Positions 10,847-16,904 of a stretch of 64,000 bases of DNA are shown piece by piece (the stretch's first letter is position 1; each line of letters opens with the position of its first letter). The DNA comes from Cognatishimia sp. MH4019 (GTDB taxonomy: Bacteria; Pseudomonadota; Alphaproteobacteria; Rhodobacterales; Rhodobacteraceae). The notes under the pieces were generated by a model. That model had not been told where the DNA came from. It did not search any database and saw only the letters and a list, made by a program, of their open reading frames with translations. The translations under genes were made by a program, and so were the position numbers. The DNA is taken from positions 124,001 through 188,000 of the forward strand of contig NZ_JAHTBL010000006.1 of assembly GCF_020177595.1 (NCBI RefSeq). Reading direction: 5' to 3'.

Positions 10847-11323
10847 TTAAATTGGCTGACAAGCCTCTGGGCTGATGACCTCGTTCTGCCAACCACGAAA
10901 CGGATTTTTTCTTGGACCGAGGGGCCGCAGATCAATATCGGCGGCGTTCTCGACAAATAGCTCAAGTCGCAGTTCCGGTGCCTCGGTGGCTAACTTCAAT
11001 TCGCGTTCAGCCATCACAACATACACATCGAACTGTGTGGTTTCACCTGAAAGCAGGCCGCCATCGATAATTCGAAACTCACCCCAATGCCCGTAAGCAA
11101 TTGGCAGCGGGCGTCCGTCAGCCCATAGTTCGTAACCAAGAACAAGACCGCCAATCGGGATTGAGAGATCGTTTGTCAGGGTCAACTCGTATTCGACACC
11201 AGCTGAATAGAACTCTTGAAATGCAACTGAGGCTACGACGTTTTCTGCGATACAGTCAGAAATAGGGTCAGCAAAAGCGGGCGACCCTAAGTTCAAACAA
11301 AGTGCAATTGCCAAACAGCGCAT
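10847..11323 (-). CDS. Secreted protein of unknown function in prophage (candidate moron)
   Basis: 158 aa. A short signal peptide (MRCLAIALCLNLGSPAFADP, likely cut after AFA) precedes a beta-rich domain with two cysteines near the ends (DCIAEN and EACQPI). I do not recognise the family. It lies between the methyltransferase frames and tail gene X. Its ATG is one base after the stop of the overlapping open frame (TGA-T-ATG at 11321-11327), with GGAGAG as ribosome-binding site. Placement inside a tail operon and the signal peptide suggest an accessory gene that changes the host envelope or helps in release. No function is assigned. Confidence 0.75.
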   Translation of the reverse strand: MRCLAIALCLNLGSPAFADPISDCIAENVVASVAFQEFYSAGVEYELTLTNDLSIPIGGLVLGYELWADGRPLPIAYGHWGEFRIIDGGLLSGETTQFDVYVVMAERELKLATEAPELRLELFVENAADIDLRPLGPRKNPFRGWQNEVISPEACQPI

Positions 11324-11324
11324 A

Positions 11325-12251
11325 TCAACTCTCCAAAAGGTTCCTAAGGTGGTCATCTTCCGAGTTCAGCTCGCAAAGCGCAATACGCATGTGCCGCAGC
11401 CAACGGGACCACTCCGTTACCGGCCGCAGAGGATCGGTCCAGCCCGAAGGCCAGCCCATCATCCAGTCCGTGAATGCAGGGTTTAAGCCGAGGGGCGCGC
11501 TCGAGTATTTTTCCCCACTCAGCAAAATCACTCGGAACGGGTGGGAAGATCGGAACGGTTGAGGTGTCCAACCCGCCGCCAGCAGCATGTCCCACATCAG
11601 GGTCCACGCGCTGGCTGCATTCTTGATCCCGATCTGGGTGCCGACCTGGTTTAAATCGGTCTTGAACTGAATGCCCGCTTGGCTGCCCTGAAGCGCTGCG
11701 CGATTGCCCGACCCCTTGAAAGTCGGCGTGGGCCAGAATGAAGACCCTTTCACGGGTATGCGATGCGCCGACTTCCGCCGCTGATACGACGCGCGCTGCA
11801 ACTTGGTAGCCCAGCTCCTGAAGGTCTCGGGTGACGTCTTGCAGGCCAAGGGTAAGATGCCCTGGCACATTTTCGAAGAAGACCCATTCGGGCGCGACCT
11901 CGGCCGTGATGCGCGCGACGTCCGGCCATAGGTGGCGGGGGTCGTTCTGGCCAAGCCTAAGGCCGGAGAGCGAGAACGGTTGGCAGGGATAACCGGCAGT
12001 GAGGATATGAACGCGGTTGCGCCATGGGCGGCCGTCGAAGGTTTTGAGATCGTCCCACACAGGTGCCTGTGCCAGGGACGTGTCCGCCATCCGCGCCACG
12101 AGAGCGGACGCGGCGAAACTGTTTCGCTCGACAAAACACACAGTTCGATATCGGGGTTCGGCAATGTGCAGTCCGAGGTCGAGACCTCCGACGCCTGAAC
12201 AAAGGCTAATGCCTCGGAAGTCATCTTCTCGTCCGGGATGAAAAGCCACAT
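11325..12251 (-). CDS. Second open frame overlapping the C5 methyltransferase (dual coding candidate)
   Basis: A 308-codon frame from ATG at 12251, overlapping almost the whole methyltransferase in another frame of the same strand. AAGGAGG stands 4 bases before this ATG. Motifs in order are SSLPVIPAN, KTSPETFRSWATKL, SFWPTPTFKGSGNR, and LNPAFTDWMMGWPSGWTDP near the C-terminus. I recognise these as recurring in phage proteins found with DNA methyltransferases, but no database was consulted. The stop is one base before the next gene's ATG, as expected of a translated operon member. The same frame is open further upstream to 12653. It could still be a compositional by-product of the methyltransferase gene. 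Confidence 0.55.
   Translation of the reverse strand: MWLFIPDEKMTSEALAFVQASEVSTSDCTLPNPDIELCVLSSETVSPRPLSWRGWRTRPWHRHLCGTISKPSTAAHGATAFISSLPVIPANRSRSPALGLARTTPATYGRTSRASRPRSRPNGSSSKMCQGILPLACKTSPETFRSWATKLQRASYQRRKSAHRIPVKGSSFWPTPTFKGSGNRAALQGSQAGIQFKTDLNQVGTQIGIKNAASAWTLMWDMLLAAGWTPQPFRSSHPFRVILLSGEKYSSAPLGLNPAFTDWMMGWPSGWTDPLRPVTEWSRWLRHMRIALCELNSEDDHLRNLLES
11353..12249 (-). CDS. DNA (cytosine-5) methyltransferase
   Basis: About 298 aa from GTG at 12249 (ATG at 12267 is the alternative). Motif I SLCSGVGGLDLGL binds S-adenosylmethionine; motif IV GYPCQPFS carries the catalytic cysteine near residue 89; motif VI FENVPGH near 125-131; motif VIII-like RERVFILAHAD; and motif X GNGVVPLAAAHAY at the end. 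The target-recognition region between VIII and X is short. It probably protects phage DNA from host restriction. GTG at 12249 and the ATG at 12251 of the second frame share the AAGGAGG at 12256-12262. It begins inside the Com-like gene (overlap about 29-47 bp), so Com may control its translation. Confidence 0.9.
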   Translation of the reverse strand: MAFHPGREDDFRGISLCSGVGGLDLGLHIAEPRYRTVCFVERNSFAASALVARMADTSLAQAPVWDDLKTFDGRPWRNRVHILTAGYPCQPFSLSGLRLGQNDPRHLWPDVARITAEVAPEWVFFENVPGHLTLGLQDVTRDLQELGYQVAARVVSAAEVGASHTRERVFILAHADFQGVGQSRSASGQPSGHSVQDRFKPGRHPDRDQECSQRVDPDVGHAAGGGLDTSTVPIFPPVPSDFAEWGKILERAPRLKPCIHGLDDGLAFGLDRSSAAGNGVVPLAAAHAYCALRAELGR

Positions 12252-12439
12252 GAGGCCTCCTTTCCATCGCACTCGTGGCGCTCTGGTTCGGGGCTCTGCC
12301 GATCTGTGCGAACGGGCCTCAATACATTGATGTTCCGGCAACGCGGGCATTTGATTGACAACACGCCAACCAGCCCATCCGGCTCCATCTTGAATAGCAG
12401 TTTTGCACAATGCGTGCATCTTATTTCCTCTTGCCTCAT
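12221..12439 (-). CDS. com: Com-like zinc-finger translational regulator
   Basis: 72 aa. IRCTHCAKLLFK and IKCPRCRNIN form the four-cysteine zinc finger that defines the Mu Com family, in which Com binds the mom mRNA and opens its translation start. The basic, less conserved tail (about residues 42-72) overlaps the start of the methyltransferase. The layout com-then-modification gene matches Mu com-mom, but the modifying enzyme here is a C5 methyltransferase. In 12221-12251 all three minus-strand frames may be coding. Confidence 0.85.
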   Translation of the reverse strand: MRQEEIRCTHCAKLLFKMEPDGLVGVLSIKCPRCRNINVLRPVRTDRQSPEPERHECDGKEASCGFSSRTRR

Positions 12440-12574: not shown

Positions 12575-13369
12575 TTAATCGGTTTGGTTGGACAGCACCT
12601 CCATAATCGCCAGCCGTTCCTGACGATCCATCTTGCCGATCTTCGCCGCCCATCGCGCCTTCTTGCGTTTGATGCGTTCCCGCTCTCGGTAGTTGTCGCC
12701 GAGGTGGCTGTAATCGTGCAGAGCGACTGGTGGCTGGAAATTCATCCAGAGGCTTTCAGGGACGCGCCCATGACGTGTCTGGGCGAGGTAATCGACGCGG
12801 GTGAAGCGGCGCAGAGCATCGTCATAAAGAGCGCTGCGGTACCCGGAGATCATCACCATGCAGCGAGCGTCGGACAGGATCGTCAGCAGCTCCTTATGAG
12901 CCGCATCATCCATTTCGAAGTCATACAGCTCTCCACCCTTCCGCGTCTCCATCAGATAAGGCGGATCGGCATAGACCAGGGTGTCGGGTTGCTCGATCAA
13001 AACGGAATCGGACACCATCGCCTTGAGCGAGGGCAGCAGCTTGAGCGCATCGCCATCCAGAAGCCGAAATTCGCGACCCTTCTCGCCCGCGAGATCAAGG
13101 CATAAATCCAGCGCATCTAGGCTTCGATCAATGCCGATGTTGCGCTCTGCTGGGCGCTTGTTCCGCAGAACCGCACCAGAGCCAAGGAATGCCTCGATAT
13201 AGGTCTTGTGCGGGGGCATGTGATTGATGATCCGCTGATAGGCGCCCGCCGCGTTTTTGCCGCCTGGATACGTCATTGCGCCTGAAGCCTCGCCACTTCT
13301 GACGATCTCGGCCGCACAGCGCAGAGCTGACGATGGCGGAATCGGATATCGCACGTTTTGGCGATACAT
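12575..13369 (-). CDS. D12-class N6-adenine DNA methylase
   Basis: 264 aa from ATG 13369, or 233 aa from ATG 13276, where MTYPGGKNAAGAYQRIINHMPPHKTYIEAFLGSGA begins the conserved domain (S-adenosylmethionine site AFLGSG). Catalytic motif DPPYLMETR follows, then a C-terminal domain ending in a basic helix. D12 enzymes such as Dam methylate adenine. It lies between tail gene U and com with a 135-bp spacer (12440-12574) to com that shows no gene. An orphan anti-restriction or regulatory methylase is likely, since no restriction enzyme gene is adjacent. Confidence 0.9.
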   Translation of the reverse strand: MYRQNVRYPIPPSSALRCAAEIVRSGEASGAMTYPGGKNAAGAYQRIINHMPPHKTYIEAFLGSGAVLRNKRPAERNIGIDRSLDALDLCLDLAGEKGREFRLLDGDALKLLPSLKAMVSDSVLIEQPDTLVYADPPYLMETRKGGELYDFEMDDAAHKELLTILSDARCMVMISGYRSALYDDALRRFTRVDYLAQTRHGRVPESLWMNFQPPVALHDYSHLGDNYRERERIKRKKARWAAKIGKMDRQERLAIMEVLSNQTD

Positions 13370-16829: not shown

Positions 16830-16904
16830 TGGTTGCGGGGGCGGGACTTGAACCCGCGACCTTCAGCTTATGAGGCTGACGAGCTACCGCTGCTCTACCC
16901 CGCA
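16830..16904 (-). tRNA. tRNA-Met (CAU), initiator-like, with encoded CCA
   Basis: Folds with a 7-bp acceptor (TGCGGGG / CCCCGCA), a D stem GAGC/GCTC, an anticodon stem TCAGC/GCTGA with loop CTCATAA (anticodon CAU), a T arm GCGGG-TTCAAGT-CCCGC, discriminator A and 3' CCA. The D arm and the GGTAGCTCGTCAG and GAAGGTC segments follow bacterial initiator tRNA. However, position 1-72 is a U-A pair and the three anticodon-stem pairs next to the loop are not G-C runs, so the initiator identity elements are altered. It sits in the late tail operon between FII and E and should be co-transcribed. An Ile-CAU identity cannot be excluded. Confidence 0.93.

Follow-up and report, generated by a model that had tools for sequence, protein, structure and literature searches.

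A Mu-like prophage C5 cytosine methyltransferase probably encoded as two subunits in overlapping full-length reading frames

We analyzed a 64,000-nucleotide stretch of Cognatishimia sp. MH4019 DNA (the window) and identified two overlapping full-length frames, alpha and beta, that very probably encode one heterodimeric C5 cytosine methyltransferase of the M.EcoHK31I kind, with a shared initiation site that is probably released by Com. Alpha would provide the SAM-binding and catalytic domain (motifs I-VIII) together with the motif X helix, making up the large domain, and beta would provide the small domain, consisting of the target-recognition region and motif IX. Ribosomes would initiate at either of the two start codons behind a single Shine-Dalgarno, so that both subunits come from one site, and the phage Com would probably free that site as Mu Com frees mom. 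From the computational results below we infer that both chains are translated and associate into an active enzyme, with the part of each chain that passes through the partner's domain being passive and disordered. The enzyme would most likely methylate phage DNA against host restriction.

Layout of the locus

The alpha and beta start codons lie two bases apart on the minus strand and have one Shine-Dalgarno in common (Table 1). An earlier note, made from the sequence alone, had placed AAGGAGG (12262-12256) ahead of an ATG (12251) opening a 308-codon frame and an overlapping GTG (12249) opening the methyltransferase frame, and all of these coordinates were correct. The C5 motifs that it listed for the methyltransferase frame are present in alpha. 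As it observed, a single base separates beta from the next gene, with the beta TGA at 11327-11325 and the next ATG at 11323, but this spacing is not conserved, since the end of beta varies among relatives. What the note missed is that the frames look like two halves of one enzyme, that selection switches between them, and that com overlaps their start. Beta is the +1 frame of alpha, and alpha third codon positions are beta second positions; therefore a silent change in alpha almost always alters the beta amino acid. The gene that follows beta (10847-11323, minus strand) has a signal-peptide-like start, is found in few relatives, and its product had no match in Pfam, PHROGs or NCBIfam.

Table 1. 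Features of the alpha/beta locus, in window coordinates
Feature	Coordinates	Strand	Basis
Alpha, C5 cytosine methyltransferase frame, 298 aa, GTG start, motifs I-VIII and X	11353..12249	-	PF00145, phrog_363, match of model to HhaI
Beta, +1 frame, 308 aa, ATG start, predicted target-recognition region and motif IX	11325..12251	-	phrog_1008, phrog_27243, openness, selection
Shine-Dalgarno AAGGAGG, common to alpha and beta	12256..12262	-	GGAAAGGA-type purine run kept in Com-bearing relatives
Beta N-terminal motif MWLFIP, selected as protein	12234..12251	-	Family pattern [MVL]x0-1 W [LIC] [YFH] [LIV] P
Alpha catalytic segment, residues 9-177	11719..12225	-	Selected in alpha frame; beta open here, free to vary
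Beta folded segment, residues 177-275, predicted recognition region and motif IX	11427..11723	-	Selected in beta frame; alpha disordered
Beta motif IX, LNPAFTDWMMGWPSGWTD	11433..11486	-	hhalign 93.8%; alignment to HhaI LHPRECARVMGYPDSYK
Alpha motif X, GNGVVP	11404..11421	-	Read in alpha frame
com, Mu-like zinc-ribbon translational activator, 72 aa	12221..12439	-	PF10122, phrog_6417
Putative Com-binding hairpin, 4-bp stem, 5-nt loop ending in GA	12269..12281	-	Covariation
Putative translation-inhibition structure	12244..12295	-	12290-12295 pairs with 12259-12260 (Shine-Dalgarno) and 12244-12247 (just past the starts); consensus fold

Openness, selection and the shared start

Searches of viral contigs, genomes and annotated phages with alpha or beta yielded 167 distinct loci in which alpha could be analysed. 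The +1 frame was free of stops over the catalytic and C-terminal regions in 155 of the 167, while the +2 frame had ~8 stops on average over the same stretch. Most of these loci were reached through beta, which may bias the set toward an open +1 frame; in a search with alpha only, unbiased in this respect, the frame was open in 26 of 29 loci. No other long ORF of the window had a +1 frame open for more than 156 codons. When synonymous codons were shuffled keeping the alpha amino acids, 39 stops were expected in 23 clusters and none was seen (log10 P about -24, with clusters formed at 80% identity and treated as independent, although clusters and pairs are not fully independent). In the reverse shuffle, the openness of alpha over the beta-selected region given the beta codons had a log10 P of about -18. 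These two tests indicate that each frame avoids stops where the other is selected, and the second frame is more than chance. In two relatives (L002:3647-3649 and L011:3649-3651) a TAG replaces the invariant Trp codon of beta (AASAWTLMW), with ATG TGG two codons on and beta otherwise open past it; inactivation, readthrough or restart are candidate readings. This interruption of beta counts against the two-subunit reading.

We assessed which frame is selected by codon-position variation in 71 disjoint homolog pairs and in four groups of relatives. Over motifs I-VIII, alpha position 3 varied more than position 1 in 71/71 pairs (rates 0.212 vs 0.083). From motif VIII to ~42 codons before the alpha end the relation was reversed, position 1, which is the beta wobble position, being more variable in 64/71 pairs (0.229 vs 0.106). 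Over the last 33 codons, including the motif X region (GNGVVP), the alpha wobble was again more variable in 49/64 pairs. The selected frame thus alternates along one DNA from alpha protein to beta protein and back to alpha protein, and in the four groups likewise the most variable codon position shifted along the gene. Since the selected frame switches along the gene, the overprint can be dissected residue by residue. The parts of beta under selection are its first six residues and residues ~177-275. The codon-position comparison that the earlier note had proposed found protein selection on beta over the predicted recognition region and motif IX. Of the beta motifs named in that note, LNPAFTDWMMGWPSGWTD stands, while SSLPVIPAN is largely forced by the conserved motif IV DNA of alpha and is not selected itself. 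Some alpha residues are also kept inside the beta-selected part (FPPGPGD..W, and the DG.A.R.DR stretch ahead of GNGVVP), and ~50 codons look truly dual-coded.

The proposal of an overprinted pair with a single initiation region was borne out by the beta start motif, which was found at the same offset from the alpha start in 152/155 loci. This motif opens with [MVL], followed directly or after one further residue by W-[LIC]-[YFH]-[LIV]-P or a sequence close to it (WIIPS in L007), and the alpha start codon lies either 4 bases before or 2 bases after that of beta in nearly all loci. Among 62 distinct sequences, the same bases read as 16 closely related pentapeptides of the WLYLP type in beta and as 40 different strings in alpha, and entropy peaked at the beta wobble positions in most codons. 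Because the beta N-terminus is kept as protein while the alpha reading varies, beta would be made from the shared start rather than an internal one, and we take these sequence patterns as evidence that it is translated from there.

Probable two halves of one enzyme

The catalytic half is readily recognized in alpha. Residues 11-176 matched positions 1-163 of the 324-position PF00145 profile, thus only the first half of alpha was covered, and the chain matched phrog_363 with an E-value of 6e-57. The C5 catalytic residues PC and ENV as well as motif VIII are present; motif IX was not found in alpha but in beta. AlphaFold2 predicted residues 9-177 and the motif X helix with confidence and left residues 178-277 disordered, and the model of residues 9-177 matched the M.HhaI structure (E 4.5e-13).

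Beta matched phrog_1008, a family named DNA methyltransferase (E 7.6e-16), in line with the suggested resemblance to methyltransferase-associated proteins, and also phrog_27243 (E 4e-9). Pfam and NCBIfam gave nothing meaningful for beta, PDB sequences had no match to it either singly or as a profile, and its model found nothing below E 0.47 among PDB folds. The window beta had no tblastn match among INPHARED phages, where relatives were reached with other family members as the query. By sequence comparison LNPAFTDWMMGWPSGWTD is C5 motif IX: the beta profile matched LNPDWVEWLMGYPISWTD of a Candidatus Megaera methyltransferase exactly at its motif IX (hhalign 93.8%). In that enzyme motif IX is read in the alpha frame, and the PF00145 match is full length. 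By phmmer its motif IX stretch aligned to LHPRECARVMGYPDSYK of M.HhaI, although this second stretch is weak alone. Euratis gp34 and Firecracker gp5 each have the recognition region, motif IX and motif X one after another in a single frame, in the canonical order. The stretch ahead of beta motif IX is highly variable in length and sequence between relatives, as in recognition regions. AlphaFold2 predicted beta residues 1-138 as disordered and 177-290 mostly with confidence. The alpha and beta models are therefore complementary, each chain being predicted as disordered where its partner folds. From its position, its variability in length and the attached motif IX, the folded part of beta would be the recognition domain.

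A different reading is that a single chain is made by programmed frameshifting, starting at alpha, slipping +1 after motif VIII and possibly slipping back for motif X. It is consistent with the order of the selected segments, which is that of a canonical C5 methyltransferase (I-VIII, recognition region, IX, X), yet it needs two opposite shifts and leaves unexplained the openness of beta over the catalytic segment (159/167 loci), the conserved beta start motif and the openness of alpha through the recognition region. We consider it improbable. Slightly less probable still is that the second frame encodes an independent overprinted protein, such as an anti-restriction or regulatory factor, and not a methyltransferase subunit. 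The selected N-terminus of beta and the lack of a solved structural relative would fit such a protein, but beta has the C5 motif IX that alpha is without, relatives join its region to motif X in one frame, and the precedent of M.EcoHK31I fits a subunit (PMC3404938). That beta is a chance ORF of a G+C-rich gene, open through composition and codon bias, can practically be dismissed: out-of-frame ORFs are common at high G+C and beta is not selected as protein over motifs I-VIII, but its frame is open in 155/167 loci including L007 at 38% G+C, the substitution pattern is reversed over the beta segment, stops are avoided at a log10 P of about -24, and in another C5 methyltransferase of the same genome (L024, ~36% identity) that frame contains 13 stops. 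For the C-terminal part of beta, chance was refuted by the codon-position pattern in 64/71 pairs.

We also sought a free-standing beta through phrog_1008 and phrog_27243, and the hits inspected all overlapped an alpha frame. The earlier note had counted an absence of homologues outside overlapping loci against the second frame; partly overlapping relatives do exist, but no truly free-standing beta was found in these searches. The partly overlapping pairs are Mycobacterium phage Firecracker gp6/gp5 and Streptomyces phage Euratis gp33/gp34 (L070:1511-2456, L071:1814-2873), in both of which motif X is in the second frame and both genes of the pair are annotated as methylases. In the Candidatus Megaera plasmid methyltransferase (L072:1281-2303) the alpha frame contains motif IX while a recognition-like GLLPTPLAS stays in the +1 frame, and this locus is possibly an intermediate or a frameshifted copy.

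Com and the closest known systems

The com product matched PF10122 (Zn_ribbon_Com) with an E-value of 1.2e-8 (34.7 bits against a curated cut-off of 22.9) and phrog_6417, a translational regulator family, with an E-value of 8.6e-11. Its 3' end overlaps the alpha and beta starts, and in most Com-bearing relatives com stops at +31 relative to the beta start. Because com ends 31 bases into beta, 12221-12249 is read in three frames. A hairpin just upstream (12269-12281) is common to 20 relatives, with both-sided changes in 3 of its 4 pairs, and the covariation score of the whole proposed structure was 0.179 compared to 0.060 in shuffled alignments (0/500). In the consensus fold, an outer helix would mask part of the Shine-Dalgarno together with the bases directly after the starts; this helix is nearly invariant and so is without covariation support. 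Mu Com binds a hairpin that has an accessible GA and lies beside the structure holding the GUG start of mom, and it activates translation (PMC6483171). The likeness to Mu com-mom extends to a zinc-ribbon com gene that overlaps the start of a gene for DNA modification and to a putative GA-loop hairpin upstream of a GUG start (PMC6483171), but here the downstream gene is a two-frame C5 methyltransferase and not mom. The com overlap, the covarying GA-loop hairpin and the mom parallel together make Com control of the alpha/beta pair likely.

M.EcoHK31I is a two-polypeptide m5C methyltransferase (YGGCCR) whose 176-aa small subunit is reportedly encoded in another frame inside the gene of its 309-aa large subunit. 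Going by that account, it resembles the present locus, in which beta is encoded within alpha in another frame; here, however, beta starts at the initiation site of alpha itself and is full length (308 codons), and the locus is in a Mu-like prophage with com upstream. Compared by description, the division of motifs is also alike, with motifs I-VIII and X in the larger chain and motif IX in the smaller (PMC3404938). On the other hand, the predicted TRD of M.EcoHK31I was placed in the larger subunit (PMC3404938), while here the recognition region would be in beta, since this part is selected in beta and alpha is disordered there. Because of this difference, and as the published TRD is only a predicted one, we treat the locus as a variant rather than a plain member of the M.EcoHK31I kind. 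The difference also suggests that in M.EcoHK31I-type enzymes the recognition domain may have been credited to a subunit that does not carry it. M.AquI is likewise divided into a catalytic subunit with motifs I-VIII and a partner that has the recognition region and motif IX, but motif X belongs to its small subunit (PMC3404938) and not, as here, to the catalytic chain. The Euratis gp33/gp34 and Firecracker gp6/gp5 pairs look AquI-like.

In Escherichia phage vB_EcoS_fTaEco01 (Kagunavirus) the depositors annotated a cytosine methyltransferase and a nested putative methyltransferase in another frame (TE1_031/TE1_032), therefore the phenomenon has already been seen in annotation; there beta starts inside alpha, whereas here it starts at the alpha initiation site. 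No account of nested methyltransferase pairs in phages turned up in full-text literature searches. Relative to the literature examined, the recognition region in beta, a full-length beta from the alpha start and, apparently, the Com control are new. The evidence indicates that the two-frame arrangement, rare and known from M.EcoHK31I, occurs widely among phages, with the two genes seldom annotated together.

In bacteria it is rare for two same-strand frames to overprint each other over their full length and both to give protein-like products. Extending the reading beyond this locus, we think it reasonably probable that a broad group of phage C5 methyltransferases is made of two full-length chains that share an initiation site, one frame providing catalysis and the other DNA recognition, that recognition can diversify partly silently for the catalytic subunit, and that in Mu-like phages the genes form a Com-controlled com/alpha/beta operon in three frames. 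An arrangement of this kind would account for the many phage 'DNA methyltransferase' proteins that have no methyltransferase domain, and for the tendency of annotation, in the records examined, to report one of the two frames. In Hades, for example, the record annotates one methyltransferase gene where the alpha and beta frames are both present. Such enzymes would also be naturally split methyltransferases for engineering.

The prophage setting is Mu-like, the window genes including Mu transposase, MuB, Mu portal, Mu F protein, sheath and baseplate J. No restriction enzyme was recognized among the adjacent genes examined. A D12-class adenine methyltransferase gene lies directly upstream of com (12575-13369, minus strand), and genes of this class were also seen in ~10 of the fetched loci, in some of them near the com/alpha/beta cassette. 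A tRNA-Met (CAT) gene is located at 16830-16904 (minus strand) within the prophage tail region, between the tape-measure and sheath genes.
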